Shown piece after piece: positions 1-25,708 of a stretch of DNA of 64,000 nt. Both the position numbers and the translations under genes were made by a program. The number at the start of each line of letters is the position of its first letter. The stretch's first letter is position 1. Source of the stretch: Thalassovita mediterranea (lineage in GTDB: Bacteria; Pseudomonadota; Alphaproteobacteria; Rhodobacterales; Rhodobacteraceae); the NCBI RefSeq assembly GCF_001458435.1, contig NZ_CYSF01000006.1, positions 558,001-622,000 on the forward strand, in the 5' to 3' direction. The notes under the pieces were generated by a model that saw only the letters and a list, made by a program, of their open reading frames with translations, searched no databases and had not been told where the DNA came from.

Positions 1-1
1 G

Positions 2-361
2 TCGCCCGGCGTGTTCCTGAACACCACCAACGACATGCGCATCAACCGTGAAGAGATGTTTGCGCCGCTGACCTCTGTGATCAAAGTTGGCAGCTATGAC
101 GAGGCGCTAGCCACCGTCAACGACACCAACTTTGGCCTGACCTCGGGCATTGTGACCAAATCGCTGGCCCGCGCGACGCACTTCCGCCGCAATGCGCAGA
201 CCGGTGTTGTCACCGTGAACCTGCCTACCGCAGGCACGGACTACCACGTGCCGTTCGGCGGTCGTGGCGACAGCTCCTACGGTCCGCGTGAACAGGGCAA
301 AGCCGCGGCAGAGTTCTACACCACCGTGAAAACCGCCTATATCAGCGCAGGTGCTGTCTGA
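2..361 (+). CDS. aldehyde dehydrogenase, C-terminal part (cut by window start)
   Basis: The frame is open from the window edge, so only about the last 119 residues are visible. They contain the aldehyde dehydrogenase C-terminal signature: an EEMFAPL segment, an NFGLTSGI segment, and the closing VPFGGRGDSSYGPREQG stretch. That last stretch resembles alpha-ketoglutaric semialdehyde dehydrogenases (NAD(P)+-dependent oxidation of a semialdehyde to the acid). The catalytic cysteine and the cofactor loop lie outside the window. The stop overlaps the next start (TGATG at 359-363), so the two genes are translationally coupled. Substrate is inferred only from resemblance and from neighbours that look like amino-acid or betaine catabolism. 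Confidence 0.85.
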   Translation, partial: SPGVFLNTTNDMRINREEMFAPLTSVIKVGSYDEALATVNDTNFGLTSGIVTKSLARATHFRRNAQTGVVTVNLPTAGTDYHVPFGGRGDSSYGPREQGKAAAEFYTTVKTAYISAGAV

Positions 362-1341
362 TGCTGATTGATGGTCTTCAATACGCCAACTGGTCGGAGA
401 AGATCTTCCGCCAGCTTCGTGAAGGGGGCGTGGATGCAATCCACGTCACCATCGCCTACCACGAAAACTTTCGTGAAACGGTTCTGAACTTTGAAAAGTG
501 GAACCGCTGGTTCGAAGAGTATCCGGACCTGATCATGAAAGGCCTGTGGGCCAGCGACATCGACAAGGCGCGTGAAACTGGCCGCACGGCAGTATTCTTC
601 GGGTTTCAGAACCCCTCGCCCATCGAAGACGACATTGGGCTGGTCGAAATCGTTCACACCCTTGGCGCACGCTTCATGCAGCTGTCCTATAACAACCAGT
701 CGCTGCTGGCGACCGGCTGTTATGAGGCCGAAGATCCCGGCATCACCCGCATGGGTAAAAAGGTCATCAAAGAGATGAACCGCGTGGGTCTGGTCATCGA
801 CATGAGCCATTCTGCCGATCGTTCCACCATCGAAGCGGCAGAGCTGTCCGAACGTCCAATCACCATCACCCACGCCAACCCGCATGAATGGGCACCGGCA
901 TTGCGCAACAAACGGGACAACGTGTTGCGCGCGGTGACGGAAAACGGCGGCATGCTGGGCTTCTCAGTCTACCCGCACCACCTGAAGGACAAATCCGACT
1001 GCACGTTGGAAAGCTTCTGCGAAATGGTGGCGCGCACTGCCGACAAATATGGTGCGGAACATCTGGGGATCGGCACAGACCTGTGTCTGGATCAACCCGA
1101 CAGCATCGTCGAATGGATGCGCGTTGGCCGCTGGACCAAGGAAATCGACTACGGCGAAGGATCCAAATCCGCGCCCGGTTTCCCGCAAATGCCCAGCTGG
1201 TTCGAAGACAACCGCCACTTTGGCAACATCGAGAACGGCCTGAAGGCCGTGGGAATGAACGACGACGAAGTCGCCGGGATCATGGGCGGCAACTGGTACC
1301 GCTTTTTTGCAGAAAACTTCGAGCCACAAGCCAAAAGCTAA
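361..1341 (+). CDS. M19 (renal/membrane dipeptidase) fold protein with incomplete metal site
   Basis: 326 aa, aligning along its length with the M19 metallopeptidase family. The later metal ligands are present: His in IDMSHSAD, His in ITHANPHEW and Asp in GIGTD, followed by the family ending GGNWYRFF. The first half of the binuclear zinc site is missing. The usual DGHNDLP near the N-terminus is DGLQYAN, so the HxD pair is gone, and the usual GxEGGHS is GFQNPSP, so the bridging Glu is Gln. No signal peptide is visible, so it should be cytoplasmic. Classical two-zinc dipeptidase activity is therefore doubtful. It is coupled to the aldehyde dehydrogenase upstream and followed after 62 bp by a BCCT carrier. 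Related M19 proteins occur beside dimethylglycine catabolism genes in Pseudomonas, so a role in amine or betaine breakdown is possible. Confidence 0.85.
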   Translation: MLIDGLQYANWSEKIFRQLREGGVDAIHVTIAYHENFRETVLNFEKWNRWFEEYPDLIMKGLWASDIDKARETGRTAVFFGFQNPSPIEDDIGLVEIVHTLGARFMQLSYNNQSLLATGCYEAEDPGITRMGKKVIKEMNRVGLVIDMSHSADRSTIEAAELSERPITITHANPHEWAPALRNKRDNVLRAVTENGGMLGFSVYPHHLKDKSDCTLESFCEMVARTADKYGAEHLGIGTDLCLDQPDSIVEWMRVGRWTKEIDYGEGSKSAPGFPQMPSWFEDNRHFGNIENGLKAVGMNDDEVAGIMGGNWYRFFAENFEPQAKS

Positions 1342-1403: not shown

Positions 1404-2948
1404 ATGACGGACAAATCGTTGGAAACAAACGGTCAGGAAGGCAAGGTGAACAAGCCGCTTTTCCTGATCTCAGGGGGCTTTATCGGGCTGTTCTGTATCG
1501 CTGCGCTGGTCAACCTTGACGCGCTGTCAGCGGCTGTAGACTGGGGTTTTAACATCTCTGCCACGTATTTCGGACTGTACTGGCAGGTTCTGCTGCTGGC
1601 GACATTCCTGATCGGTCTACTGCTGTGCGTTCTGCCCGGCGGCAAAGCGATCCTAGGCAATCTGGCCGCGCCGGAATTTACCACATTCCAGTGGGGTTCG
1701 ATGATCATGTGTACGCTGCTTGCTGGCGGCGGCGTGTTCTGGGCTGCAGGTGAGCCGATTGCGCACTACCTGTATTCCCCGCCACTCTACGGCGCTGAAG
1801 CAGGCACGCCTGAGGCCGTAAATGCAGCCATGGCACAGAGCTTCATGCACTGGGGTTTCCTAGCCTGGGCCATCCTTGGTTCGCTGTCGACCGTAATGCT
1901 GATGCACTACCACTATGAAAAGGGTCTGCCTCTGGCGCCGCGCACCCTGCTATACCCTGTGTTTGGGGACAAAGCGATCAACGGCCCGATTGGTCTGATT
2001 GCTGATGCCTCATCGATCATCGCTGTGGTTGCGGGCACTGTTGGTCCTATCGGTTTCCTTGGGCTACAGGTCGCCTATGGTCTGGAGGATCTGTTTGGCA
2101 TCCCGAACGGGTTTGCAACGCAGTTCATGGTGATTGCGGCACTTGTCAGCATCTACACCATTTCTGCAATGACTGGCCTGTCGCGTGGCATTCAGCTCTT
2201 GTCCAAGATCAACGTCATTCTGGCCGCTGCACTGCTGCTGTTTGTGTTGATCGCAGGGCCGACCGGTTTTATCTTTGGCTCGTTCTTCTCTGGTTTTGGC
2301 ACCTACATTGCCAACTTCTTCCAGATGGCGCTGTATCGTGGTGATGCGGGTCTGTTTGGCGCACCTGGCTGGCTGGGCTGGTGGACTGTGTTCTTCTGGG
2401 GCTGGTTCATGGGCTATGGCCCGCTGATGGCGATGTTCATCGCCCGTGTCTCGCGCGGCCGTTCGATCCGTTCGATCATCATCATGCTGTCGATCATCGC
2501 GCCGATCGTGACCAACTTCTGGTTCACCATCATCGGTGGCACCGGCATCTCGATGGAACTGGCTGATCCGGGCACCATCTCGAAAGCCTTCGAAGGGTTC
2601 AACCTGCCTGCGGCGCTGCTGGCGATCACGTCAAACCTGCCGATGGGCTTCCTGATCTCGATCCTGTTCCTTATCCTGACCACGATCTTCGTAGCCACCA
2701 CCGGCGACTCGATGAGCTATGTGATCTCCGCCACCATGACCAAAGGCGACAACCCGCCGGCGGCTGTGCGTGTTTTCTGGGGGATCGCTATGGGGGTCAT
2801 GGCCGTGATCCTGATCTCCGTCGGATCGGGCGGTGTCTCCAAACTGCAGAGCTTTATCGTTGTCACAGCAGTACCTGTGTCACTGATTTTGCTGCCTTCG
2901 CTGTGGGATGCCCTGCGCATCACCTTGGCGAAAGGGAAAGAGAACTAA
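1404..2948 (+). CDS. BCCT family transporter
   Basis: 514 aa with about twelve hydrophobic segments, a usual BCCT length. A strong ribosome site (AAGGAGGGA, 1392-1400) precedes the ATG. The family signature is in the middle: a WTVFFWGWFMGYGPLM segment followed by FIARVSRGRSIR, and an earlier FWAAGEPIAHY segment. BCCT proteins are secondary carriers, often Na+- or H+-coupled, for quaternary ammonium compounds such as glycine betaine, choline or carnitine. Against the classical WAWWISW tryptophan box this protein has WGWFMGY, so two aromatic positions differ and the substrate may not be a standard betaine. It sits between catabolic genes, which suggests nutrient uptake rather than osmoprotection. 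Confidence 0.93.
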   Translation: MTDKSLETNGQEGKVNKPLFLISGGFIGLFCIAALVNLDALSAAVDWGFNISATYFGLYWQVLLLATFLIGLLLCVLPGGKAILGNLAAPEFTTFQWGSMIMCTLLAGGGVFWAAGEPIAHYLYSPPLYGAEAGTPEAVNAAMAQSFMHWGFLAWAILGSLSTVMLMHYHYEKGLPLAPRTLLYPVFGDKAINGPIGLIADASSIIAVVAGTVGPIGFLGLQVAYGLEDLFGIPNGFATQFMVIAALVSIYTISAMTGLSRGIQLLSKINVILAAALLLFVLIAGPTGFIFGSFFSGFGTYIANFFQMALYRGDAGLFGAPGWLGWWTVFFWGWFMGYGPLMAMFIARVSRGRSIRSIIIMLSIIAPIVTNFWFTIIGGTGISMELADPGTISKAFEGFNLPAALLAITSNLPMGFLISILFLILTTIFVATTGDSMSYVISATMTKGDNPPAAVRVFWGIAMGVMAVILISVGSGGVSKLQSFIVVTAVPVSLILLPSLWDALRITLAKGKEN

Positions 2949-3064: not shown

Positions 3065-4768
3065 ATGACCGATATTCAACGCCGTGCCCCCAACACCGTT
3101 ATGCGCCTCGCGCGTTTGGGTTCCATCCACCAATCCCGCCTGTCATTCATGCGCGTGCTGACCCGTCGTCTGGCCCGTGAAGGCTGGCGTTTTGAGAAAA
3201 CCGCATTTGATGTGAATGACGCAGGCGAAGGCCATGCGGTTTACACCGTGCACGGTCCCGAACGTTCGTATTCACTGATTGCATTCGCCCACGATCTGCC
3301 AGCTGAAAAACGATCCGACCGCGTGATCGCGGAGGCATGGGATGCGACCTTTACCCTGTTTGATGGCATCCCCACTGCCCAAGACATCGAACGCCTTAGC
3401 AACAACATCCCGGTTCAAGAAGCTGGCCGCGTCACCGGAACAGAATTGTCCGTGTCGCGCGCCAACCGTTCCGTGCGACTGTGGGAACATGTGGTGTCCT
3501 GCCTAGCAGATGGACGCCAACCTGACCCCGAACAGATTAATGCCGTTGGCTATCTGATGCGCACCACTGCGGTCTATGGATCCGGCAAGCTGGGCGCGGC
3601 TGATCGCGAAATGATTGCCGACCGCCCCGAATTCGCCGCCCCGTTTCAGGTGGAAATGCTGTCGGTCTACCTGACCCGCTGGTTCGTGCTGGATTTGGTA
3701 CAGCATATGGCAAACCGTCGCGCTGCCGCAAACGGCACCACCGCTGCAAGCCTGTCGCCTGAACTGGGCCGTTCGATGGGGATCGGCAACTCTACCGGCC
3801 TCGGCATGGCACCGTTTCTGCTGAACCATCCGGTTCTGTTCAACAACTGGATTTCCGCCCGCGAAAACGCAATTCAGACCGTGCGCAGCCTGGCATCCGC
3901 CAGCCCTGAAGACGTGGCACTGTTCAAGTCGCTGGTCGCGCGCAGCAAAGTCACTATCGCTAAATGGCATTCTGAACATCCGATCCAGATCGAGAAGCTA
4001 CAGGGCCTGCGATCTGACGTGGCCAAGGTAGACGCCTATCTGGCTGCAGCAGATCTGACGGATGACCACCCTTGGGATAAGCTTTATCGTTGGGCAGCGG
4101 ACACGCTCTCGCTGGAGGGGCAGGAATGGATTGCCTCCCTGATCCTTGAACCCTACGGGGCATTGGTGGACGACTTTGCATGGGATATGGCAGCCGACAA
4201 CACCGCCACCTTCCGTATCGCTGGCGCGATGAGTGTGCGCGATCTGCGCGCCCTACTGACCGACGTGTATTCTTGGGCGATCGATACTGACTGGCAGAGC
4301 CCAGCCAACCGCGCCCGTGCGTGGTATGTTTCCGAAGAAAAACTGGAACCGCGGCTGGGTGAACGGTTCGAAGAGCCGATCGAGGAATATGAACAACCGC
4401 TGGCACCGGGTCGCGATGCCGCGCAGCTGTTCAAAGCGCTGTCCCACTGGCCGGATGAGGCACAGGTAGCCGACTTCCTACTGCGCCACCCCGAACACCG
4501 CCACGTACTGCGCCGTGCCCAGATCGTTGGCCGTGCGCCTTATGCGGAAATTCGCGACAACACGATTTCCGATCAGGTTCTGCCAATCGACATGCTGCGT
4601 TGCAAACTGGCCTTCTTTGGGGCCACGCAATTTGACCCGCGTTCGGATCGCTGGGTGCGCATCTGCATGTACGGCAACGCGCCGCTGCCGATGGAACTGA
4701 CCCCTGAAAACGCCGACTTCTGGGTATTCCCGGCTGCTGACACCAAACTCGAGGAGAGCGCAGCATGA
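3065..4768 (+). CDS. conserved-looking protein of unknown function, 567 aa
   Basis: I do not recognise the family. The protein has no signal peptide and no clear membrane segment, so it is probably a soluble cytoplasmic protein. The N-terminus is basic (MTDIQRRAPNTVMRLARLG). Further on are many Trp/Arg-rich helices and an acidic stretch (EERFEEPIEEYEQPLAPG is approximate, near residues 435-455). No nucleotide-binding or metal motif stands out. It overlaps the next gene by 4 bp (ATGA), so both are made from one message with the BCCT gene upstream. The coupling to a DUF3726-like protein and a dehydrogenase suggests an enzyme or accessory factor of the same catabolic route, but the reaction cannot be named. 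Confidence 0.85.
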   Translation: MTDIQRRAPNTVMRLARLGSIHQSRLSFMRVLTRRLAREGWRFEKTAFDVNDAGEGHAVYTVHGPERSYSLIAFAHDLPAEKRSDRVIAEAWDATFTLFDGIPTAQDIERLSNNIPVQEAGRVTGTELSVSRANRSVRLWEHVVSCLADGRQPDPEQINAVGYLMRTTAVYGSGKLGAADREMIADRPEFAAPFQVEMLSVYLTRWFVLDLVQHMANRRAAANGTTAASLSPELGRSMGIGNSTGLGMAPFLLNHPVLFNNWISARENAIQTVRSLASASPEDVALFKSLVARSKVTIAKWHSEHPIQIEKLQGLRSDVAKVDAYLAAADLTDDHPWDKLYRWAADTLSLEGQEWIASLILEPYGALVDDFAWDMAADNTATFRIAGAMSVRDLRALLTDVYSWAIDTDWQSPANRARAWYVSEEKLEPRLGERFEEPIEEYEQPLAPGRDAAQLFKALSHWPDEAQVADFLLRHPEHRHVLRRAQIVGRAPYAEIRDNTISDQVLPIDMLRCKLAFFGATQFDPRSDRWVRICMYGNAPLPMELTPENADFWVFPAADTKLEESAA

Positions 4769-5415
4769 GCCACTCATTGAACGAAATCGAAGCGATGAGC
4801 AAACGCGCCGCACGCGGCGCTGGCCTGTCCTGGGGCCTGTCCGAAGAGGCCGCCAAAGGTACGCGCTGGCTGTCGGCATTCGGTTTTCCGGGAACAGAAA
4901 TGCTGACCGAGCTGTTGCAGATGAACGACCGCATCCCGCCGATTGATGTATCGCCCGTCTCTCTCAGTGCGGATATCTGGCACGCCCCAACCCGCCGGAT
5001 GAGCCCGTTGATCGCAGGCGCATCGCTGTCGGACTGCGCCGTGCGCCTGTTGGAACGCGGCACCATCACCATGCAAAACGTCAGCCTGCCCTTGCTGGCG
5101 GTGCCCTTCATGGGCGGCGCGGCATTGCGCCTTGGCGTGCCCGTCGCCGCCGAATGGGACGGTGCGCGGGTTGCCACTGATGGCAAGCAACTGTGCGTGC
5201 AAGGCGAAGCAGAGGCGTTGCGATCCAAACATGCCGCCACGCTGGTCTTTTCTGCCCCTGCAGAAATGACCGGAAAACGCGAACCCGTCATGCGCGCCGA
5301 AGTGTGCGAAGATAGCTGGGACCAGCTGGGCAAATTTGCCCACCGCACCTTTGCCCCCGCCACCGAAGAAAGCCGCCTGCGCGGCGCGGGCGCGGGCGTT
5401 AGCGACAACGACTAA
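4765..5415 (+). CDS. DUF3726-like protein
   Basis: 216 aa. The N-terminus (SLNEIEAMSKRAARGAGLSW followed by GLSEEAAKG) resembles my memory of the DUF3726 family, whose function is unknown. There is no signal peptide, membrane segment or obvious catalytic motif. Its start overlaps the stop of the 567-aa gene, so the two are coupled and probably work together. The family assignment is from memory and should be treated as likely, not certain. Confidence 0.75.
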   Translation: MSHSLNEIEAMSKRAARGAGLSWGLSEEAAKGTRWLSAFGFPGTEMLTELLQMNDRIPPIDVSPVSLSADIWHAPTRRMSPLIAGASLSDCAVRLLERGTITMQNVSLPLLAVPFMGGAALRLGVPVAAEWDGARVATDGKQLCVQGEAEALRSKHAATLVFSAPAEMTGKREPVMRAEVCEDSWDQLGKFAHRTFAPATEESRLRGAGAGVSDND

Positions 5416-5476: not shown

Positions 5477-6484
5477 ATGACCGCCACGGAAACACTCTCC
5501 CTCGCAGAAATCGAAACGCTCGCCTTTGACGCACTGGTCAAGGCAGGCACATCCGAAGAGAATGCCCGCCCCCTCGCCGTTGCCACCGCCATGACAGAAG
5601 CGGATGGCGTTGCATCGCATGGCCTTGCCTACATCCCGATCTATGCCCAGCACGTTGAATGCGGCAAGGTTGACGGGCAGGCAAAACCTGTTGTGGATCA
5701 ACCCCGCCCTGCCGTCGTCACCGTGGACGCGGCCACGGGTTTTGCCCATAGCGCCATCGATCTCGGCTTTGAAAAACTGATCCCGCTGGCCAAAGAAATG
5801 GGCGTTGCGGTTCTGGCTGTGAACAATTCCTACAACTGTGGTGTTCTGGGTGTGCACACCCAACGTCTGGCACAGGCAGGCCTGATGGGCATCGGTTTCA
5901 CCAACGCGCCAGCCTCCATCGCACCGTCGGGCGGCGCCAAGCCTGTTGTAGGCACCAACCCATTCTCCATCTCGGCCCCCGACGCTGAAGGGAACGCCGC
6001 GCTGCTGATCGACCAATCTGCCAGCACCATCGCCAAAAGTGAGGTGATGAAACACGCCCGCGAAGGCCAACCCGTGCCCGAAGGCTGGGTTCTGGATGCA
6101 AACGGCCAGCCCACCACCGATCCTGAGGCAGGCCTGAAAGGGTCCATGGTTCCCTCTGGCGGCTACAAAGGCGTGGGCATCGCGCTGACCGTGGAACTGA
6201 TGGCCGCAGCCATGACTGGCGCGACCCTCGGCTCTGTCGCCAGCCCGTTCTCTGGCACCGCAGGTGGCCCGCCGAAGACCGGCCAGTTTTTCATCGCGAT
6301 TGACCCCGAAGCCACATCCGGCGGTTTGTTCCAGGAAAAACTGGCGGCGCTGGTCGCATCGTTCCGCGACCAAGACGGGGCGCGCCTGCCCGGCGATGGC
6401 CGCCAGACTGCCCGCGTGCGCGCAGCAACAGACGGCGTGGCCGTAAACGCCGCCCTGCTAGAGAAAGTACGTGCACTGCTGTGA
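5477..6484 (+). CDS. Ldh2/YlbC-type malate/L-lactate/ureidoglycolate dehydrogenase family oxidoreductase
   Basis: 335 aa from the ATG at 5477, preceded by an AGAAAGA-type ribosome site. The frame is open further upstream, but that part reads through the intergenic hairpin. The protein matches the type-2 malate/lactate dehydrogenase family: an ADGVASHG substrate segment, a VGTNPFSISAP segment and a GYKGVGIALTVELM segment typical of the NAD(P)H-binding region. The family reduces or oxidises 2-oxo/2-hydroxy acids and also includes reductases of cyclic imino acids (delta1-piperideine- or pyrroline-2-carboxylate). Together with the semialdehyde dehydrogenase and BCCT carrier this leaves open a proline- or lysine-type betaine pathway. 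Substrate unproven. Confidence 0.88.
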   Translation: MTATETLSLAEIETLAFDALVKAGTSEENARPLAVATAMTEADGVASHGLAYIPIYAQHVECGKVDGQAKPVVDQPRPAVVTVDAATGFAHSAIDLGFEKLIPLAKEMGVAVLAVNNSYNCGVLGVHTQRLAQAGLMGIGFTNAPASIAPSGGAKPVVGTNPFSISAPDAEGNAALLIDQSASTIAKSEVMKHAREGQPVPEGWVLDANGQPTTDPEAGLKGSMVPSGGYKGVGIALTVELMAAAMTGATLGSVASPFSGTAGGPPKTGQFFIAIDPEATSGGLFQEKLAALVASFRDQDGARLPGDGRQTARVRAATDGVAVNAALLEKVRALL

Positions 6485-6612: not shown

Positions 6613-7407
6613 TCAACTCTCTGTCCAATTCAGGGTCTGCCCATTGTAGTAGGCGGTCAGTTCATCCGCGAAAGTTTTGTAGATATCCATGACCTCATCA
6701 ACCGATGGTGCCTGCAGATTATCAATGCGTTCCATGTAAGGACAGTTCACGACCGAAATCGCGCGACAATCCTTATCGAACACGGGAAATACCAAGTTGG
6801 TGACCCCCAGAACGGTAGATGAGGGCATCCGCTCATATCCGACTTCGCGGATCCGTGCGACATGGTCCATAAACTCCGCACGGTCGATTTCTGGCTCTCC
6901 GGGTGCCAGCTGGTGGTCATCCAGCAGCTCGTCGATTTGCTCATCCGTTCGAAACGCTGCAAGCACACGACCAGTACCAGTATTGCCCAGACCGACAACG
7001 GATCCCGCCCGCAGCGAAAGCCCCCAACTCCACGGCGAGGAAACCGAGGCGACGATGACAATGCTGCCATTGCTTTCCATCCCCATATGGCAGGACTGCC
7101 ATGCCCGTTTGGTAATCACCCGCATCCGGGGAATCGCTATTTCCAACAAACGCTCCACCGGAGGGAGCCGCTGAGAGACCGCAAATAGCTTCAGGCTGAG
7201 CGAATAGAGGTCATCTTCGACGGAACGAATGACATAGCCACGCTGAACCAGCGTGGACAGCATACGGTAGATTTCACTCTGCGAGCGGTCCAGCGCCTTT
7301 GCAATGTCACCCTGGGACATACCGCTACCGCTAATCGACAAAAGTTCAATAATATCAAGGCCCTTTTCAAGGGCTGGCGCACTGTATTTGGTCGTTTTCT
7401 GTGTCAA
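6613..7407 (-). CDS. IclR family transcriptional regulator
   Basis: 264 aa. The N-terminal 60-80 residues form a winged helix-turn-helix (ALEKGLDIIELL, then MSQGDIAKALDRSQSEIYRML). The rest is the IclR effector domain, with the typical central GNTGTGRVLAAF region and a VFDKDCRAISVVNC segment near the end. It is transcribed divergently from the L-fuconate catabolic operon, with 260 bp between the starts. The simplest reading is that it senses L-fuconate, 2-keto-3-deoxy-L-fuconate or a related acid and controls that operon. Effector inferred from position only. Confidence 0.92.
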   Translation of the reverse strand: MTQKTTKYSAPALEKGLDIIELLSISGSGMSQGDIAKALDRSQSEIYRMLSTLVQRGYVIRSVEDDLYSLSLKLFAVSQRLPPVERLLEIAIPRMRVITKRAWQSCHMGMESNGSIVIVASVSSPWSWGLSLRAGSVVGLGNTGTGRVLAAFRTDEQIDELLDDHQLAPGEPEIDRAEFMDHVARIREVGYERMPSSTVLGVTNLVFPVFDKDCRAISVVNCPYMERIDNLQAPSVDEVMDIYKTFADELTAYYNGQTLNWTES

Positions 7408-7474
7408 TTCGCGCTCCTCCGCGGGTGGTTATAGCAAACTCGGCTCGTCTCTCAAGGCTAGCAACGGAAACTGA

Positions 7475-7514
7475 CATGTTAGCACTTCTTTCATGTTAGT
7501 ATTTACAGATAAAT
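7475..7514. promoter_or_regulatory. candidate IclR operator: direct repeat CATGTTAG
   Basis: CATGTTAG occurs at 7475-7482 and again at 7492-7499, a 17-bp spacing. An AT-rich imperfect palindrome (AAATGAATTATTT) follows at about 7511-7523. The site lies between the iclR-type gene and the SDR gene, close to the iclR start. Binding is inferred, not shown. Confidence 0.4.
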
Positions 7515-7667
7515 GAATTATTTGTATTTGGATAAAAGAGGAGTTGCTTGGAGGAGGAAAATTGGTGGCGCGTGAGCAACGCGCATCCGCAGCATTCGAG
7601 GAGGGCACAGCCCTGCCGTCACAACGCAAAGCGCACCAAATCCCCTTCATCTGAAATCGAGGACGAA

Positions 7668-8417
7668 ATGCTACAATCGAAGTACCGACTGGCCGGAAAA
7701 CGGGCCCTGATTACGGCCGCAGGCCAAGGCATCGGACGTGCAAGCGTCGAACGCTATGTCGCCGAAGGGGCCAAGGTCATCGCCTGTGACATCAACGAAA
7801 CCGCTCTGGCTGAATTGTCCGCCCTTGAGGGTGTCACTGCGCTGAAACTGGACGTCACAGATGCCGAAGCCGTCACACAGGCCGTGGCAGAGGCAGGCCC
7901 GCTGGACATTTTGTTCAACTGCGCTGGGTTTGTCGGCGCTGGGTCCATTCTGGAATGTGACGACGACCAGTGGGATTTCAGCTTCAACCTGAACGCCAAG
8001 GCGATGTTCCGGCTGGCCAAACTGGTACTGCCCGGAATGCTGGAAAACGGAGGCGGTGCCATTATCAACATGGCATCGGTTGCATCGTCGGTCAAAGGTG
8101 TCCCCAACCGCTTTTCCTATTGCGCCTCGAAGGCGGCGGTTGTTGGCCTGACCAAGTCCATCGCCGCGGATTTTGTCACCAAAGGCATCCGCTGCAATGC
8201 GATCTGCCCCGGCACCGTTGATAGTCCCAGCCTGCATGACCGCCTGCGCGCCACAGGTGACTATGAAAAATCGCTGCAAGACTTCATCGCGCGCCAGCCG
8301 ATGGAACGCATCGGCAAGGCCGAAGAGATCGCCGCGCTTGCCACATATCTGGCCAGTGATGAGGCCGCCTTCACAACGGGTCAGACGTTCGCCATCGACG
8401 GCGGTTGGACCATCTAA
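7668..8417 (+). CDS. SDR dehydrogenase, probable 2-keto-3-deoxy-L-fuconate dehydrogenase
   Basis: 249 aa from the ATG at 7668; the frame extends upstream but that part is not SDR-like. Nucleotide motif TAAGQGIG near residues 14-21, NCAG, catalytic Ser region, YCASK (Tyr-x3-Lys) and PGTV are all present. A CAGFVGAGSILECDDDQWDF segment and a SSVKGVPNRF segment closely resemble the 2-keto-3-deoxy-L-fuconate dehydrogenase of the Xanthomonas L-fucose pathway. That enzyme oxidises 2-keto-3-deoxy-L-fuconate at C4 with NAD+ to the 2,4-diketo acid. It is first in an operon with the hydrolase and dehydratase of the same route. Confidence 0.88.
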   Translation: MLQSKYRLAGKRALITAAGQGIGRASVERYVAEGAKVIACDINETALAELSALEGVTALKLDVTDAEAVTQAVAEAGPLDILFNCAGFVGAGSILECDDDQWDFSFNLNAKAMFRLAKLVLPGMLENGGGAIINMASVASSVKGVPNRFSYCASKAAVVGLTKSIAADFVTKGIRCNAICPGTVDSPSLHDRLRATGDYEKSLQDFIARQPMERIGKAEEIAALATYLASDEAAFTTGQTFAIDGGWTI

Positions 8418-8431
8418 CCGAGGAAAAGAAT

Positions 8432-9277
8432 ATGAAACTTCTGCGTTATGGCCCTGTTGGGCAGGAAAAACCGGGCCTGCTGGATACAGACGGCAACATC
8501 CGCGACCTATCTGACAAAGTCGCTGATATCTCGGGCGCTGTGCTGTCGGATGCTGGCCTTGCTACGATCCGCGACTTGGACGTAGACGCCCTTCCCTTGG
8601 TCGAAGGTTCCCCCCGCATTGGGGCCTGCGTCGGGCAGGTGGGCAAATTCATCTGTATCGGTCTGAACTATGCCGATCACGCCGCTGAAAGCGGCATGGA
8701 ATTGCCCGAAGAGCCGGTGATCTTCTTCAAAGCAACCTCAGCGATTACCGGTCCCGATGACACCGTGGAAATCCCCCGCAATTCGGTCAAAACCGACTGG
8801 GAGGTCGAACTGGGCGTCGTGATCGGGAAAGAGGCCAAGTACGTATCCGAAGCAGATGCGCTGGATCATGTCGCTGGATACTGCGTCGTGAATGACCTGT
8901 CTGAACGTGACTTCCAGCTGCATCGTTCGGGCCAATGGGTCAAAGGTAAATCCGCTGACACTTTCGGCCCAATCGGTCCGTGGTTGGTAACACGCGACGA
9001 AATCACCGACCCGCAGAACCTGCCAATGTATCTGGAAGTGAACGGGCACCGCTATCAGGACGGTTCCACCAAAACTATGCACTTTGATGTCGCGACGGTC
9101 ATCTCGCATCTGTCGCAATTCATGTCGCTGCAACCCGGCGATGTCATTTCGACCGGCACCCCTCCGGGCGTCGGGCTGGGCCAGACACCCGAGGTCTACT
9201 TGAAACCCGGCGACGTAATGGAATTGGGCATCGAGGGTCTGGGCGTACAACGCCAAAAGGTCGAGGCAAGCGCATGA
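8432..9277 (+). CDS. fumarylacetoacetate hydrolase family protein, probable 2,4-diketo-3-deoxy-L-fuconate hydrolase
   Basis: 281 aa from the ATG at 8432, with GAGGAAAAG as ribosome site 15 bp after the SDR stop. The FAH fold core is present: a CIGLNYADHAAESG segment, a DWEVELGVVIG segment supplying acidic metal ligands, an NDLSERDFQ segment and a KSADTFGPIGPW segment, ending GTPPGVGLG. The family uses Mg2+ or Mn2+ to hydrolyse a C-C bond in diketo acids. In the non-phosphorylating L-fucose pathway this step gives pyruvate and L-lactate. Its 3' end overlaps the dehydratase start (ATGA, 9274-9277). Confidence 0.88.
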   Translation: MKLLRYGPVGQEKPGLLDTDGNIRDLSDKVADISGAVLSDAGLATIRDLDVDALPLVEGSPRIGACVGQVGKFICIGLNYADHAAESGMELPEEPVIFFKATSAITGPDDTVEIPRNSVKTDWEVELGVVIGKEAKYVSEADALDHVAGYCVVNDLSERDFQLHRSGQWVKGKSADTFGPIGPWLVTRDEITDPQNLPMYLEVNGHRYQDGSTKTMHFDVATVISHLSQFMSLQPGDVISTGTPPGVGLGQTPEVYLKPGDVMELGIEGLGVQRQKVEASA

Positions 9278-10563
9278 CCAAGATCACAGGTCTCAGAACC
9301 GAAGATCTGCGCTTCCCAACCTCGGCCAGCTTGGATGGGTCGGACGCAATGAACCCCGATCCGGACTATTCCGCGGCCTATGTGGTTCTGGAAACAGATG
9401 GTCCTCATGCAGGCCATGGCCTTACGTTTACAATCGGTCGGGGCAACGAAGTGTGCGTTGCCGCGATCGAAGCATTGGGCGCGCTGGTCATCGGTTTGGA
9501 CCTGGACTGGATCACTGAAGATATGGGCCGGTTCTGGCGCCATATCACCAGCGACAGCCAATTGCGCTGGATCGGCCCGGACAAGGGCGCGATCCATCTA
9601 GCGACCGGTGCCGTGGTCAATGCCGTTTGGGATCTGTGGGCCAAAGAGGCTGACAAACCAGTGTGGCAACTGGTCGGTGAAATGAGCCCCGAAGAAATCG
9701 TGCGCCTAGTCGATTTCCGCTATCTGACGGACGCGATTACCCCCGACGAGGCGCTGGCTCTGCTGACAAAGGCCGCCAGCGGAAAACAACAGCGCATCGC
9801 GTCGCTACAGGCCGAAGGATACCCCTGCTACACAACCTCGGCTGGTTGGCTTGGCTATACTGATGAAAAGCTGCGCCGCTTGTGCCGCGAAGCGAAAGCG
9901 GCTGGTTTCACCCACACCAAGTTCAAGGTGGGCCGCGACCTGGCCGATGACATCCGCCGCCTGACCATCGCACGCGAAGAATTGGGCGACGACATGAATA
10001 TCATGATCGACGCCAATCAGGTCTGGGAAGTGGATCAAGCCATCGACTGGGTCAAGGCGCTGTCGTTTGCGCGTCCTTTCTTTATCGAAGAACCGACAAG
10101 CCCTGATGATATTTTCGGCCACAAGACCATTCGCGAAAGTGTGGCACCGATCAAGGTTGCGACGGGCGAGATGTGCCAGAACCGCATCATGTTCAAACAG
10201 TTCATCCAGCAAGGCGCGATTGACATCGTTCAGATCGACAGCTGCCGGATGGGTGGCCTGAACGAAGTGCTGGCCGTCATGCTCATCGCCGCAAAATACG
10301 ATCTGCCCGTCTGGCCTCATGCTGGCGGCGTGGGCCTGTGTGAATATGTGCAGCACATGTCGATGATCGACTATGTCGCCATATCGGGTGAGAAGGACAG
10401 CAAGAGGATCGAATTTGTCGATCATCTGCACGAACACTTTGTGGATCCCTGCGTTGTCAAAAATGGTGCCTACATGGCCCCGCAGCGCCCTGGCTTCTCG
10501 ATCCAGATGAAACCCGAAAGCATCAGAAATTTCCGTTTCCTGCCAAAACTGGCAGCGGAATAA
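9274..10563 (+). CDS. fucD: L-fuconate dehydratase (enolase superfamily)
   Basis: 429 aa, usual length for L-fuconate dehydratase. The N-terminal lid contains RFPTSASLDGSDAMNPDPDY, typical of this group. The barrel has a KFKVG Lys-x-Lys catalytic motif near residue 213, metal ligands in MIDANQVW (Asp), FIEEP (Glu) and ATGEM (Glu), and the catalytic His in WPHAGGVG. The reaction is dehydration of L-fuconate to 2-keto-3-deoxy-L-fuconate. Coupling to the two next enzymes of the route supports the assignment. L-fucose dehydrogenase and lactonase are not in the window. Confidence 0.93.
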   Translation: MTKITGLRTEDLRFPTSASLDGSDAMNPDPDYSAAYVVLETDGPHAGHGLTFTIGRGNEVCVAAIEALGALVIGLDLDWITEDMGRFWRHITSDSQLRWIGPDKGAIHLATGAVVNAVWDLWAKEADKPVWQLVGEMSPEEIVRLVDFRYLTDAITPDEALALLTKAASGKQQRIASLQAEGYPCYTTSAGWLGYTDEKLRRLCREAKAAGFTHTKFKVGRDLADDIRRLTIAREELGDDMNIMIDANQVWEVDQAIDWVKALSFARPFFIEEPTSPDDIFGHKTIRESVAPIKVATGEMCQNRIMFKQFIQQGAIDIVQIDSCRMGGLNEVLAVMLIAAKYDLPVWPHAGGVGLCEYVQHMSMIDYVAISGEKDSKRIEFVDHLHEHFVDPCVVKNGAYMAPQRPGFSIQMKPESIRNFRFLPKLAAE

Positions 10564-10627
10564 CCCCTGCCGCCTGACACAACAACAAAACAAACAGGCG
10601 GTTCAAAATCTTCATGGAGGAAAAGAA

Positions 10628-11602
10628 ATGTTCACTTTCAAACAAGCTGTCTTTGGTGCGGCCTGCCTGTCTGCGTTTGGCGCAACCGCGGGCGTGGCAC
10701 AGGAAACCCTGCGTTTTGGCCACGTTTATGAGGCGTCTACCCCTTATCACGCGGCAATGGTCAATGCGGCCGAACTGTTAGAAGCAAAGACCGACGGTCG
10801 CTACACAATGGAAGTGTTCCCCGCATCCCAGCTCGGCAAAGAAGCCGCGCTGAACGAGGCGTTGTCGCTTGGTACTGTTGATGCGATCTATACCGGCGTT
10901 GCCTTCCTCGGTCAGTCATATGGCCCGATCAGCATCTCGGATTATCCGTTCACAATGCGCTCGTTTGAGCATTGGAAAGCCTATGTAAACTCTGACCTCT
11001 TTGATGAGATGGCAGGCGAATACAAAAACATCTCAGGCAACACCATTGCCACGATGACCTACTATGGCGCCCGCCATGTGACATCGAACAAACCGATTTT
11101 GGCCCCCGCCGACATGGACGGCCTGAAAATCCGTACCCCCAACGCCCCTGCGTATCAGATGTTCCCGAAAGCAACCGGCGCCAACCCGACACCGATGGCA
11201 TTTGCCGAGGTGTATCTGGCCCTGCAGCAAGGTGTTGTGGATGCGCAGGAAAATCCGCTGCCGACCATCCAGTTCAAGAAGTTCTACGAAGTGCAGTCCA
11301 ACATCAACCTGACTGGCCATATCACCAACTCTTTGGCAGTTGTGGTATCGCCAGTCACGTTGGGCAAAATGGGCGACGATGGACAGCTATTGCTGGATGC
11401 ACTGGCTGAAGCTGCCGCTGCCACTTCGGAAGAAATAGTTCAATCCGAAGCAGAGCTTGTCAGTTGGTTCCGCGACCAGGGTGTAAACGTGAACGAAGTA
11501 GACCGCGCACCGTTCATGGCAGCTGTCTCACCAATGCTGACCAGCGGCAATGTTCCGTGGGACAAAGAAATCTTTGAACGCCTGCAAGCCATCCAAGAAT
11601 AA
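10628..11602 (+). CDS. dctP: TRAP transporter solute-binding protein DctP family
   Basis: 324 aa with an N-terminal signal peptide (cleavage probably after GVAQ, near residue 24), so it is periplasmic. An AGGAAAAG-type ribosome site precedes the ATG. The DctP hallmark is present: the KIRTPNAPAYQMFPKATGAN stretch with its substrate-carboxylate Arg, followed by MAFAEVYLALQQGVVDAQENP. Such proteins deliver sugar acids or other carboxylates to the DctQM permease. Its place behind the fuconate enzymes suggests L-fuconate or a related aldonic acid as ligand. Confidence 0.93.
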   Translation: MFTFKQAVFGAACLSAFGATAGVAQETLRFGHVYEASTPYHAAMVNAAELLEAKTDGRYTMEVFPASQLGKEAALNEALSLGTVDAIYTGVAFLGQSYGPISISDYPFTMRSFEHWKAYVNSDLFDEMAGEYKNISGNTIATMTYYGARHVTSNKPILAPADMDGLKIRTPNAPAYQMFPKATGANPTPMAFAEVYLALQQGVVDAQENPLPTIQFKKFYEVQSNINLTGHITNSLAVVVSPVTLGKMGDDGQLLLDALAEAAAATSEEIVQSEAELVSWFRDQGVNVNEVDRAPFMAAVSPMLTSGNVPWDKEIFERLQAIQE

Positions 11603-11611
11603 TCCTTGTGA

Positions 11612-11645
11612 CGGGCCCGGATCATCTCTGGGCCCGCCTTTCTTT
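11612..11645 (+). terminator. intra-operon hairpin with T-rich tail (partial terminator)
   Basis: A 7-bp GC stem (CGGGCCC / GGGCCCG) followed by CCTTTCTTTCT lies between the binding-protein gene and the dctQ gene. In binding-protein-dependent transporters such sites let the binding protein be made in excess over the membrane subunits. No other terminator or promoter is seen here, so some readthrough is expected. Confidence 0.65.
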
Positions 11646-11661
11646 CTGGGAGGAGAGAACA

Positions 11662-12204
11662 ATGTCGAGGGACGAAACCCCACCTGAAATTGACTTCGAT
11701 GCGCTGGCTGCCGAAGACGAAGCACACTTTCAGACTTACAAGATCACTTTCGCCGACTACGGGCTGTTGTCGATATTCGCGGCGTTGTTCGGGGTGGTCT
11801 TCTTGCAGTTTTTCACACGCTACGTGCTTAACGACTCTGTCGCGTGGACCGAAGAGGCGGCGCGCTATTTGCTGATCATCTTGGGCTTTGCTGGTGCGAT
11901 CCGCTGTCAGGCGGTTGGCAGCCACATCGCACTGGAATTCGTCGACAAATACTACGGCCGTAAACTGGGGCTGGTTCACCTGTTTGCCTTGGCCGCATCT
12001 GTCGTGTTGTTCGCTGTTATCATTTGGTCCGCCTATGAACTGATCCAACGGACATCTTTTCAGCAGATGGTCTCGCTTCCATTCCCGAAATACTACCTGC
12101 ACATCGCCGTTATGGTCTTAACCACAGGCAACCTTGGCGTCGTCGCCTTTCAAATCGTGCAGCGCCTGAAAACCCTGAAATCCCGAGGTGCAACATGGGC
12201 CTGA
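11662..12204 (+). CDS. dctQ: TRAP transporter small membrane subunit DctQ
   Basis: 180 aa from ATG 11662, chosen for the GGGAGGAGAG ribosome site just upstream. Four hydrophobic segments with the DctQ features VFLQFFTRYVLNDSVAWTEE and AIRCQAVGSHIAL are visible. It joins the large DctM subunit in the inner membrane and is needed for Na+-driven uptake. Its last 10 bases overlap the dctM start. Confidence 0.9.
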   Translation: MSRDETPPEIDFDALAAEDEAHFQTYKITFADYGLLSIFAALFGVVFLQFFTRYVLNDSVAWTEEAARYLLIILGFAGAIRCQAVGSHIALEFVDKYYGRKLGLVHLFALAASVVLFAVIIWSAYELIQRTSFQQMVSLPFPKYYLHIAVMVLTTGNLGVVAFQIVQRLKTLKSRGATWA

Positions 12205-13475
12205 TCATTCTCTTTGCATCGCTCTTTATTCTGATGGCGCTGCGGGTGCCGATTGCGTTCTCTCTGGCGCTGTCGTCTTTTGCTTACATCCTCTATTCCG
12301 GTCTGCCGCCCGTCTTGCTGATGCACAATATGGTCAATGGCATGGACAGCTTCCCATTGCTGGCGATCCCGTTCTTTATCCTTGCTGGGGCGCTAATGAA
12401 CTCGGCGGGCATCACTGCGCGCATCTTTGGATTTGCCCGTGCCATTGTCGGCTGGATGCACGGCGGTTTAGGCCATGTAAATGTCGGTGCCAGCATCATC
12501 TTTGCCGGCATGTCCGGTGCCGCTGTAGCAGATGCCGGTGGATTGGGGGCTATCGAAATCAAAGCGATGCGCGAAGCGGGCTATGACGACGATTTCAGCG
12601 TCGGCGTAACCGCGGCCTCTTCTACCATTGGGCCGATCATCCCCCCCTCTCTGCCGCTGGTGATTTTTGGTGTTATGGCCTCTGTCTCCATCGGGAAACT
12701 CTTTGTCGCGGGCATTATCCCCGGGCTGTTGATGGCACTGTCGCTATCCGCAATGATCTGGTGGATGTCGCGCAAACGGGACTATCCGCGCGACGTCAGC
12801 TTTAGCCCCACCGTGATCGCCACCCGTTTCAAAGCGGCTTTCCTACCGCTGATGACCCCCGTGATCATCGTCGGTGGCATCGTATCTGGCGCGTTCACAC
12901 CGACCGAAGCCGCGATCGGCGCCGCCGCTTACGCGTTGTTCCTTGGTACAATCGTGTACCGCACACTCAGCGTCCGGAAACTGGCGGTCATTTCACTGGA
13001 AACCATCGAAACAACTGCTGCGATCATGATGATTGTTGGCGCAGCCTCGGTCTTTGCGTGGATTTTGACCGCCAATCAGGTCGCCGCCCAATTTGCCGAA
13101 TTTGTCCTGTCGTTCACCGACAGCAAAGCGGTCGTACTACTATTGATCATGGCGGTGGTGTTGATTGTCGGGCTGTTCATGGAAACCATCGCAGCGATTT
13201 CCATTCTGGTTCCGGTGCTGATGCCGGTCGCCGCACAGTTCGGGATCGATCCGGTCCACTTGGGGATCATCGTCATCTTGAATCTTATGCTGGGACTGTT
13301 GACCCCGCCGGTCGGCATGGTGCTGTTTGTTCTGTCGCGCGTTTCGAAGGTGCCGTTTGAACAATGCGTCCGTGCCACCCTGCCCTTCCTAATCCCACTG
13401 ATCGGGGTGCTATTACTGCTGACGTTCGTGCCCTCACTGGTGCTTTGGTTACCGGAGCTGCTTTACGGCGCCTAA
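12195..13475 (+). CDS. dctM: TRAP transporter large permease subunit DctM
   Basis: 426 aa, normal DctM length, strongly hydrophobic throughout (about 11-12 segments). Family marks include MVNGMDSFPLLAIPFFILAG near the N-terminus, FAGMSGAAVADAGGLG, AASSTIGPIIPPSLPLVIFG and LTPPVGMVLFVLSRV near the end. It is the Na+-coupled channel of the transporter, last gene of the operon, followed 27 bp later by a strong terminator. Confidence 0.95.
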   Translation: MGLIILFASLFILMALRVPIAFSLALSSFAYILYSGLPPVLLMHNMVNGMDSFPLLAIPFFILAGALMNSAGITARIFGFARAIVGWMHGGLGHVNVGASIIFAGMSGAAVADAGGLGAIEIKAMREAGYDDDFSVGVTAASSTIGPIIPPSLPLVIFGVMASVSIGKLFVAGIIPGLLMALSLSAMIWWMSRKRDYPRDVSFSPTVIATRFKAAFLPLMTPVIIVGGIVSGAFTPTEAAIGAAAYALFLGTIVYRTLSVRKLAVISLETIETTAAIMMIVGAASVFAWILTANQVAAQFAEFVLSFTDSKAVVLLLIMAVVLIVGLFMETIAAISILVPVLMPVAAQFGIDPVHLGIIVILNLMLGLLTPPVGMVLFVLSRVSKVPFEQCVRATLPFLIPLIGVLLLLTFVPSLVLWLPELLYGA

Positions 13476-14633: not shown

Positions 14634-15866
14634 ATGCCAAAGATCGCAAAAGAACTGTCTCCACTTGAAGTTTCGCGCCTGAACAAACCTGGGTTTAAGG
14701 CTGTTGGCGTCGTTCCCGGACTTGGGTTACAAATTCGAGGGCAAGCGCGCTCTTGGATATTGCGGGTTAAGATCGCTGATAAGGTTAGAGATATTGGCTT
14801 AGGTGGATATCCGGGTGTCACGCTAGCGATGGCACGCGAAGCAGCTCGGCAACTACGAAGCAAAATCGAATCTGGGATAGATCCGATCCAGGAGCGCAAA
14901 GTCCGTAACGACGAGTTGCGAGCAGCACAACGAAAACGCCTACTTTTTGTGGATGCCTGTCGTCAGTTTCTTGAAGACAAGCAAACTGAATGGGGCAATG
15001 CCAAACATCGGCAACAATGGGAAAATACCCTCCGAACACATGCTCTGCCAGTCTTGGGTAATCTCGCAGTGGACGACATCGAATTGGCCCATGTCTTGGA
15101 GGTTCTTAAGCCTATTTGGCACAAAACACCCGAGACGGCTAAACGCACACGTGGCCGGATAGAAAAGGTTTTAGACTGGGCCAAGGTACATGGACACCGA
15201 GATGGCGAAAATCCTGCTCGATGGCAGGGAAATTTGGAGAACGCGCTACCTTCCATTGCTAAGGTCCGCGTCGTGAAACACCATCCAGCGCTACCCTATC
15301 ATGAAATTGGAGCATTCATAAAACGACTGAGAGAGCGCAACGGAACAGCGGCAGTTGCTCTAGAGTTCCTCATTCTGACATCTGCACGGTCAGGAGAGGT
15401 TCGAGGAGCGACGTGGCAGGAATTTGATTTGAAAAAGCGTGAATGGATAATTCCCGCAGAGCGTATGAAAGCCCGTAAAGAGCATCGCGTCCCGCTCTCA
15501 GATCGCGCGGTCGAAATTCTTACGGAAATCCCAAAGGGCCAAGGTGATGAAATTGTGTTTAAAGCAGTGCGAGGTGGGGTTTTGTCAGACATGACACTCG
15601 GTGCAGTTCTGAAGCGCATGGAAGTGCCAGTCACGACTCATGGTTTCAGAAGTACTTTCCGAGACTGGGCTGGCGAAACGACAGCATTCCCAAGAGAGGT
15701 CATCGAGCATGCGCTTGCGCATCAACTCAAGGATAAGGCCGAAGCTGCATATGCCAGAGGAACGCTGATGGAAAAACGGCGGAAATTAATGGCTGCTTGG
15801 GCAGAATATTGCGAACAAGCCACAAATGCTCCGGGCACTGTCATCCAGATACGTACATCGCATTAA
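14634..15866 (+). CDS. int: tyrosine recombinase/integrase, P4 type
   Basis: 410 aa, a typical length for island and P4-type integrases. N-terminal DUF4102-like arm-binding domain (residues 1-90, including the segment from IRGQARSWILRVKI to DIGLGGYPGVTLAMAR), then a SAM-like core-binding domain (about 100-190). The catalytic domain has Arg in TSARSGEVRGATW, the HGFRSTFRDW box (His-x-x-Arg), a His in ALAHQ and the nucleophile Tyr in AAYARGT. It recombines the attachment site at the tRNA-Ser 3' end. It starts 173 bp inside the left repeat and reads into the element. Confidence 0.95.
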   Translation: MPKIAKELSPLEVSRLNKPGFKAVGVVPGLGLQIRGQARSWILRVKIADKVRDIGLGGYPGVTLAMAREAARQLRSKIESGIDPIQERKVRNDELRAAQRKRLLFVDACRQFLEDKQTEWGNAKHRQQWENTLRTHALPVLGNLAVDDIELAHVLEVLKPIWHKTPETAKRTRGRIEKVLDWAKVHGHRDGENPARWQGNLENALPSIAKVRVVKHHPALPYHEIGAFIKRLRERNGTAAVALEFLILTSARSGEVRGATWQEFDLKKREWIIPAERMKARKEHRVPLSDRAVEILTEIPKGQGDEIVFKAVRGGVLSDMTLGAVLKRMEVPVTTHGFRSTFRDWAGETTAFPREVIEHALAHQLKDKAEAAYARGTLMEKRRKLMAAWAEYCEQATNAPGTVIQIRTSH

Positions 15867-16106
15867 GGGATTATAGATTTTCCCGAAACGCCTACCTATA
15901 CACAATATTTAGTTGCTCAAAAAATTTACAATACACTATATTGACATGCACTGGGTCTATCTGGCACACTCAAGAAAGGCACATGTATGGGCGCTTCGTT
16001 GCATACCCATTTCTACCGCACCACGGAAGTAACCAAGCTGACCAGATTATGCTGGAGCTTCGTTATGATGCCTTCCCACACTGGAAACAACCCGGAGGTC
16101 ATAGAA

Positions 16107-16346
16107 ATGGACCAAAACCAAAATACATTGCGTGCGCAATTGGATTGCATTCAAATCTTTGGGGCACTGCCAGATGACGCGCTGGTTGACCTAAAAACGG
16201 TAAGTACGCTCGCATCTCGAAGCCGTTCTTCAATCTATCGCGACATACGACTGGGCTACTTCGTGAAGCCCCTACGTCTCGGCAAGATATCAAGCCGATG
16301 GCGTGTTGAAGATGTCCGTGCCTATCTCAATGGCAACTCTATGTAA
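16107..16346 (+). CDS. alpA: AlpA-like DNA-binding protein (excisionase/regulator)
   Basis: 79 aa from the ATG at 16107, preceded by CGGAGGTC. The frame extends upstream, but that part shows no family features. The core LVDLKTVSTLASRSRSSIYR is an AlpA/MerR-type helix-turn-helix, followed by LRLGKISSRWRVEDVRAYL. Such proteins often activate integrase or act as excisionases in P4-like elements. Its place between integrase and primase fits this. Confidence 0.8.
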   Translation: MDQNQNTLRAQLDCIQIFGALPDDALVDLKTVSTLASRSRSSIYRDIRLGYFVKPLRLGKISSRWRVEDVRAYLNGNSM

Positions 16347-16436
16347 AAACCGCGCGCTCAAAGGCAGCTGTAGAACGGTTTACCGTCTGTTATTTAGCTT
16401 CTCTACGGCGCGCCTCCAAATAACATGGAGAGTCAA

Positions 16437-16646
16437 ATGTCATACGTTACCGTCATCAAGTCGGTCCAACTGTCGACGCTGATCCAACGCTTCTTTTTAG
16501 ACGGCGAAGGTAAAGTCAAAAAATACTTACTCAGTGGAATTTGGGACGGAAAATTTCCCAAATCGCAGAAATTTGGCCATCGGCCGATCTTGGCTAACGA
16601 GGGTTTACAGAGTCGTTGTGAGTGGTGGTTGGAGGATGAGAAATGA
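16437..16646 (+). CDS. small unknown protein coupled to primase
   Basis: 69 aa from ATG 16437 (MSYVTVIKSVQLS), with GGAGAG as ribosome site; ATG 16425 is an alternative. It is basic and Trp-containing, with the pattern SGIWDGKFPKSQKF, but I know no family. It overlaps the primase start (ATGA, 16643-16646), so it is probably made with the primase. Upstream is a 7-bp inverted repeat (GTTATTT 16389-16395 / AAATAAC 16418-16424) that may be a control site. Confidence 0.6.
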   Translation: MSYVTVIKSVQLSTLIQRFFLDGEGKVKKYLLSGIWDGKFPKSQKFGHRPILANEGLQSRCEWWLEDEK

Positions 16647-21793: not shown

Positions 21794-21795
21794 CG

Positions 21796-24050: not shown

Positions 24051-24126
24051 GTCTGGATTCCTGTCATTATTTTTAGACAAAGTATTGGTAGTGCTAGCAT
24101 TTCGCAAATATATGTTTAGTATTATT

Positions 24127-24147
24127 CCCATATATAATTTGTATGGG
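24127..24147. promoter_or_regulatory. candidate LysR operator
   Basis: CCCATA (24127-24132) and TATGGG (24142-24147) form a 6-bp perfect inverted repeat with a 9-bp AT spacer, 9 bp before the LysR start in the divergent intergenic gap. The place fits autoregulation of the LysR gene and control of the acyl-CoA dehydrogenase operon. Confidence 0.5.
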
Positions 24148-24156
24148 ACTGGGCGC

Positions 24157-25674: not shown

Positions 25675-25708
25675 CATTGATTTTTCCAGGGTTATGGCGG
25701 AGGAGGTG
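25675..25708. repeat. attachment site, tRNA-side copy
   Basis: Second copy of the repeat at 14427-14460: CATTGATTTTT at 25675-25685 and TATGGCGGAGGAGGTG at 25693-25708. The 16-mer covers the last 14 bases of tRNA-Ser, including the encoded CCA, plus two bases downstream. Insertion of the element therefore keeps the tRNA gene complete. Confidence 0.85.

Follow-up and report, generated by a model that had tools for sequence, protein, structure and literature searches.

Two overlapping genes encode a near-obligate protein pair in a probable N-methylglutamate-yielding operon of Thalassovita mediterranea

RESULTS

Layout of the operon

We analyzed a window of 64,000 nucleotides from T. mediterranea, in which two genes, whose products we call A and B, belong to a catabolic operon (Table 1). 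The initial annotation placed a 567-aa protein and a DUF3726-like protein, overlapping by 4 bp, between a transporter and a dehydrogenase; this layout holds, with an overlap that reads ATGA, a BCCT gene upstream, and an Ldh_2 gene downstream. The order of the operon is ALDH, M19, BCCT, A, B, Ldh2, preceded by a LysR gene divergent from ALDH; the 5′ end lies outside the window, as ALDH begins upstream of it. The top NCBIfam scores of ALDH were for alpha-ketoglutaric semialdehyde and 2,5-dioxovalerate dehydrogenases, under the equivalog cutoffs. BCCT and A are separated by 116 bp, in which a GC-rich repeat at 2955 to 2976 could form a short hairpin; no T run follows it.

Table 1. Genes of the operon and the overlap of A and B (window positions)
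Feature	Position	Strand	Basis and remarks
Aldehyde dehydrogenase (ALDH), 3′ part	1..361	+	NCBIfam; whole gene, L002:14913-16361
M19-family hydrolase	361..1341	+	Nearest solved structure by sequence, 2i5g, "amidohydrolase"
BCCT transporter (betaine/carnitine/choline family)	1404..2948	+	Family profile match
Protein A, 567 aa, founder of an unnamed family	3065..4768	+	ORF, ATG start
Stop/start overlap of A and B	4765..4768	+	Sequence; 4 bp
Protein B, 216 aa, DUF3726; predicted degenerate member of the Ldh2 family, extended by a conserved C-terminal tail	4765..5415	+	ATG start
Ldh2-family oxidoreductase (Ldh_2)	5477..6484	+	Nearest solved structure by sequence, 1wtj, delta1-piperideine-2-carboxylate reductase

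Both A and B are real genes under purifying selection. In four close pairs (L003, L008, L029, and L010), dN of A and B was 0.033 to 0.146 and dS was 0.88 to 1.74; in a fifth pair (L012), dS was saturated. Minus-strand ORFs of 325 and 272 aa run over B; these are shadows. A is present once in the genome.

Ldh2 is the last gene of the operon, and the genes past the IclR gene at 6613 are another cluster. That region (6613 to 13475) holds genes for an IclR regulator, an SDR, an FAH hydrolase, an enolase-superfamily dehydratase, and, by reading, a TRAP transporter; the best NCBIfam model for the FAH hydrolase is 2,4-didehydro-3-deoxy-L-rhamnonate hydrolase, under the cutoff. The cluster resembles sugar-acid catabolism and stands outside the A-B operon. 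Farther on, a phage-type integrase and a DUF3987/primase-type protein (14634 to 19012) mark an integrated mobile element beside the catabolic clusters; a tRNA scan of positions 1 to 30000 found none next to this element and a single tRNA-Ser at 25695. An acyl-CoA catabolic cluster follows at 20160 to 24167, with HpcH/HpaI citrate-lyase-like and family III CoA-transferase genes and, by reading, an acyl-CoA dehydrogenase gene.

Protein A

The initial annotation regarded both proteins as uncharacterized, and the profile searches and structure predictions that it proposed bear this out for A. None of 58 relatives of A matched a Pfam family at an E value of ≤0.01, and the window protein gave only a chance-level match (E value, 0.21). 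Searches of A by sequence against NCBIfam, PHROGs, and the PDB returned nothing significant. The AlphaFold model of A has a pLDDT of 91.8 and a pTM of 0.92. Its best match among solved structures had an E value of 0.45 in Foldseek and, in VIA-align, a Z score of 3.7 over 102 residues, with no related family listed; the best match among viral predicted structures had an E value of 0.12. As the searches used the whole 567-aa model, we regard a new fold, judged from the predicted structure, as likely rather than proved. Across the 58 sequences, which reach down to 28% identity, 29 columns are invariant, among them nine arginines and eight glycines. Inspection of A for a flavin, heme, metal, or nucleotide signature recognized none.

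Protein B

For B, the view of an uncharacterized protein needs correction. The window B belongs to DUF3726 (PF12525), which it matches over residues 3 to 80 with an E value of 1.2e-27 and 96 bits against a gathering cutoff of 22.1. This Pfam model is limited to 73 positions at the N terminus and assigns neither a function nor a relationship, and our literature search for DUF3726 found no paper. In structure, B resembles Ldh2 enzymes. The AlphaFold model (pLDDT, 93.4) has Ldh2-family enzymes as all of its first 27 Foldseek matches (best E value, 4.1e-5), and VIA-align gave 15 Ldh2 entries with Z scores of 11.0 to 13.4, rmsd values of 3.3 to 3.9, and 167 to 191 residues; the next, unrelated entry scored 4.5. 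A clear hit to a known unrelated enzyme, which the initial annotation named as a possible refutation, was not found for A.

By sequence, the relationship is visible in relatives of B. The window B gave no match to Pfam Ldh_2 (PF02615) at an E value of ≤1. The gammaproteobacterial-type partner at L123, from the same phylum and another class, matches both DUF3726 (4.7e-11) and Ldh_2 (1.3e-10, over the cutoff); the partners of Natrinema (4.8e-9) and Ensifer (7.5e-4) also match Ldh_2. The Ldh_2 matches at L127, L137, L163, and L164 were below the cutoff. When a B profile was run over 4,455 ORFs, the Ldh2 proteins of the same operons ranked directly after the Bs. An hhalign comparison of B with an alignment of the neighboring Ldh2 proteins was weak (probability, 4.7; E value, 0.0025 in a search of one), and five gammaproteobacterial B rows found nothing against the same alignment. 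We base the Ldh2 ancestry of B on the Pfam matches of its partners, the profile ranking, and the predicted structure.

The Ldh_2 family includes malate/L-lactate, ureidoglycolate, and sulfolactate dehydrogenases and delta1-piperideine-2-carboxylate reductase. B appears to share its fold, with sequence similarity in three lineages, but is ∼120 residues shorter, lacks four conserved segments, and has a new tail. The four segments of the neighboring Ldh2 (SHG, GTNP, IDQSAS, and SGGYKG), which we take to be catalytic and nucleotide binding, are absent from the window B in the alignment and from all five aligned partners (L031, L123, L127, Natrinema, and Ensifer). Sequence and model together thus portray B as a degenerate Ldh2-family protein that has lost these segments. 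The tail, with the pattern P..E.SR..GAGAG..DND, is the most conserved part of B: the mean majority share is 0.70 at residues 196 to 216, against 0.27 to 0.45 elsewhere. Within the tail, the pLDDT drops from 84 to 53. Since it is conserved yet predicted to be disordered in the model of B alone, we infer that the tail may fold on A.

A and B occur together

Of the 394 genomes sampled from the family, 176 (∼45%) have A, as do 161 of the 347 of good quality. It was also found in 39 of 289 genomes of a class sample and 28 of 398 of a phylum sample, both of which contain T. mediterranea itself and other members of the family. DUF3726 is present in 155 of the 394 family genomes, and 152 of these have A (hypergeometric, 2e-78); separation in most genomes, which would have spoken against a pair, is therefore not what we find. 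Some genomes of the family sample have two copies of A. In Halocynthiibacter namhaensis RA2-3 (L030:9971-11676), A is broken across two frames, either a disrupted gene or a sequencing error.

We collected 73 loci, namely that of T. mediterranea, 32 from named genomes, and 40 others. A clear B adjoins A in 70. In 67, the profile search found B on the same strand at an E value of <1e-3; 33 of the 73 loci contributed rows to this profile and therefore match by construction, and DUF3726 is independent of it. The adjoining ORF is DUF3726 by Pfam at two more (L124 and L125), and at L128, also counted, B is split into two ORFs (84 and 28 bits). Outside the 70, L131 and L129 have weak B-like ORFs (23 and 14 bits, respectively). 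At L130, A runs on into a B-like domain in one ORF of 868 aa. This domain scored 13.1 bits among the 4,455 ORFs, level with Ldh2 proteins (11 to 19 bits), and 16.2 bits when the tail was searched alone; a Pfam search of the tail found nothing of note. We read L130 as an A-B fusion from this low score together with its position at the end of A.

The family reaches well beyond Rhodobacterales. A was found in 168 of 72,556 plasmid records, among them those of Phaeobacter, Sinorhizobium pSymB (27 to 28% identity), and the archaeon Natrinema versiforme (28.8%), whose A has its own B of 317 aa. In Phaeobacter inhibens, the operon (L135) is carried by a plasmid of 238 kb.

The near-constant adjacency, the fusion at L130, and the conserved tail of B, predicted to be disordered alone, all agree with the proposal of the initial annotation that so tight a pair works together. 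We consider the partnership of A and B very likely.

M19 is a third near-constant partner

A neighbor search for the pair together with BCCT, M19, and Ldh2, as first suggested, singled out M19. With an identity cutoff chosen per family and some of the 73 loci bounded by contig ends, M19 lay within 8 kb of A in 68, ALDH in 39, LysR and Ldh2 in 32 each, BCCT in 22, MgdC in 12, ProW in 7, and ProX in 6. M19 is thus the third near-constant partner of the pair.

The order ALDH, M19, A, DUF3726, Ldh, plus a BCCT or glycine-betaine ABC transporter, recurs in the annotated genomes of Ruegeria sp. TM1040, Phaeobacter inhibens 2.10, Aliiroseovarius crassostreae, and Aminobacter sp. SS-2016. Two small alphaproteobacterial genomes (L115 and L116; 1.4 Mb) have a ProXWV-type transporter, ALDH, M19, A, and B, with Ldh2 on the opposite strand. 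A DMSP demethylase (NF009133, over the cutoff) is encoded near the M19-A-B genes of one of them (L115:10815-11921). Sinorhizobium and Ensifer have the order IclR, A, B, M19, ABC transporter, aminotransferase, succinate-semialdehyde dehydrogenase, RidA, and the pSymB copy (L164:8220-19662) represents this rhizobial version, with a different downstream route; Aminobacter has a locus that resembles the rhizobial A-B-M19 arrangement. A literature search for S. meliloti locus tags found one passing reference, to the transport gene SMb20383 in connection with a dme mutant, and we give it no weight. In Natrinema, a dihydrodipicolinate-synthase-family gene lies near A. More distant M19-A-B loci (L062 to L080), with 42 to 48% identity to A, are without ALDH or BCCT; several adjoin conserved genes that are, by reading, GTPase-like and tRNA-pseudouridine-synthase-like.

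An N-methylglutamate dehydrogenase orthologue often accompanies the operon

At 12 of 33 loci (our own and the 32 from named genomes), a gene like MgdC or SoxA stands upstream of the operon. Sarcosine oxidase and N-methylglutamate dehydrogenase are of the same family. In a tree of 33 SoxA-like proteins, the operon-linked and gmaS-linked MgdC proteins fell into one clade (27 rows; support, 100/99), and five paralogues and the long-branched L117 fell outside. By sequence, then, the operon neighbor is an orthologue of MgdC, and MgdABCD, although outside the A-B pair, is a frequent neighbor and a candidate for the last step of the pathway. An AraC-type (TmaR-like) regulator stands beside both the operon-linked and the gmaS-linked genes, with 47 to 51% identity between the two kinds; according to PMC13390433, TmaR stands beside mgdABCD in Ruegeria pomeroyi.

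Among 20 genomes with A that we searched, 15 have an Mgd orthologue at 65 to 88% identity and 5 do not; other paralogues reach ≤57%. gmaS is present in 12 of the 20. Five genomes have the orthologue within 25 kb of gmaS, and four have it within 8 kb of A. For comparison we used 22 genomes without A, a hand-picked part of those listed from the family and phylum samples: 15 of 20 genomes with A had the orthologue versus 5 of these 22 (P = 0.0009), and among genomes without gmaS, it was found in 5 of 8 with A versus 1 of 15 without A (Fisher P = 0.009). Mgd without the methylamine pathway therefore tends to accompany the operon. Close linkage is confined to the 12 of 73 loci counted above, and the mgd copy of T. 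mediterranea is on another contig (C3).

DISCUSSION

A proposed route from homarine to N-methylglutamate

The mgd and TmaR-like neighbors, an Ldh2 like piperideine-2-carboxylate reductase, an ALDH like ketoglutarate-semialdehyde dehydrogenase, and the betaine-type transporters together indicate a pathway that yields N-methylglutamate. We consider this assignment probable, with slightly less assurance that the substrate is homarine. Homarine is N-methylpicolinate (C7H7NO2), and N-methylglutamate is C6H11NO4; by our own calculation, homarine + 4 H2O = N-methylglutamate + formate + 2[H]. As ALDH would oxidize and Ldh2 would reduce, the remaining step, given to A and B by elimination, should be a two-electron oxidation of the ring. 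In the proposed route, BCCT or another betaine-type transporter would import homarine, and A and B would attack the N-methylpyridinium ring, opening it in a two-electron oxidation. ALDH would oxidize the resulting C5 semialdehyde, M19 would hydrolyze an N-formyl or similar amide and release the formyl group, and Ldh2 would reduce an imine or enamine to N-methylglutamate, which Mgd would finally demethylate to glutamate.

A and B very probably form a complex. Within it, A, whose family is unnamed, may carry out catalysis or bind the substrate, and B may be a pseudo-dehydrogenase of Ldh2 descent that would dock on A by its conserved C-terminal tail; this enzyme would work with the M19 hydrolase. 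That the two carry out the ring attack is a tentative suggestion: with no cofactor signature recognized in A, we can only guess at a ring oxygenase by excluding the other enzymes. Taken whole, the picture of A and B as one enzyme that acts with M19 in an operon converting an imported N-methyl betaine, most likely homarine, to N-methylglutamate is our best explanation, and its chance of being right in every part falls a little short of even. Speaking against it are the small share of loci (12 of 73) with mgd close by, the separate contig of mgd in T. mediterranea, the 5 of 20 genomes with A that lack the Mgd orthologue, and the many loci where ALDH, Ldh2, or BCCT was not found.

A similar logic is found in the trigonelline pathway of Acinetobacter baylyi, whose tgn genes include a two-component flavin monooxygenase: oxidative opening of an N-methylpyridinium ring, an aldehyde dehydrogenase, and an amide hydrolase. 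Unlike that monooxygenase, A has no Pfam match or solved relative, and B matches only DUF3726 and Ldh2. A literature search for the trigonelline enzymes found no paper that describes them. Homarine catabolism itself was reportedly traced in a 2026 Nature Microbiology study to a six-gene operon with a regulator, with N-methylglutamate as the product, said to be spread over Rhodobacterales and abundant small-genome ocean clades. Such an operon would fit the one described here, and that work may already list its genes. The involvement of Mgd in homarine catabolism, a feature in common with our proposal, is stated in PMC13390433, which cites the 2026 work. Our literature search for a homarine gene list led only to this citing paper and to the metabolite papers PMC9723723, PMC9038784, and PMC12817926; for R. 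pomeroyi, the latter describe fast homarine drawdown (PMC12817926) and no confirmed homarine transporter (PMC9723723).

Other explanations

Instead of homarine, the operon could degrade a different N-methyl betaine, for example that of hydroxyproline or of proline, with A, B, and M19 responsible for some other ring opening or a demethylation. Alpha-ketoglutaric semialdehyde dehydrogenase, for which ALDH scores highest, is the last enzyme of hydroxyproline catabolism; moreover, BCCT and ProXWV-type transporters suit any betaine, Ldh2 relatives reduce cyclic imines, and the archaeal copy has its dihydrodipicolinate-synthase-family neighbor. We nevertheless think this route rather unlikely, as no further enzyme of it was recognized among the clusters recurring beside A and the recurrent demethylating neighbor is orthologous to N-methylglutamate dehydrogenase. 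A broader view makes A, B, and M19 a general module for opening or hydrolyzing N-heterocyclic amino acids, reused across pathways, of which homarine is one of several. Many relatives have M19, A, and B alone, which means that other pathways must use the module as well; the distant loci without ALDH, the rhizobial and similar Aminobacter arrangements with their different companions, and the genomes with two copies of A all suit such reuse. This view, a minor but serious possibility, is compatible with the homarine route rather than opposed to it.

A and B might also be an accessory or sensory pair, for instance one that chaperones or activates M19 or Ldh2, and B could assemble with Ldh2 itself. 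The loss of catalytic segments from B, the lack of a recognized cofactor motif in A, and the constancy of M19 would fit this role. However, the 29 invariant columns of A, with their arginines and glycines, resemble an active site more than they do a scaffold; B seems not to need Ldh2, which is near A in only 32 of the 73 loci; and the operon minus A and B has no candidate for attacking the substrate. We therefore hold an accessory role to be improbable. The chance that the pair is an annotation artefact, ORFs overprinted in GC-rich DNA as the long opposite-strand ORFs over B might suggest, is negligible given purifying selection on both genes, the DUF3726 match, the confident structures of A and B, and conservation into Archaea, and we rejected it.

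Implications

Homarine is an abundant plankton osmolyte. If the homarine route holds, it would supply the chemistry by which ocean bacteria open this compound and give a function to two orphan families, DUF3726 and the unnamed family of A. It would also provide a clear case of a dehydrogenase turned structural subunit, and A, a candidate for a new fold, is open to direct structure determination. More speculatively, and in our view doubtfully, A may be the first member of a new enzyme fold and, despite having no recognized cofactor motif, open carboxylates of the N-methylpyridinium or a related N-heterocyclic type, with B as a dead relative of imine reductases, stripped of its cofactor site, whose tail completes the active site of A. 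If true, this would be an enzyme with a pseudo-dehydrogenase subunit common to marine alphaproteobacteria, including those with genomes of 1.2 to 1.6 Mb, gammaproteobacteria, rhizobia, and a haloarchaeon.
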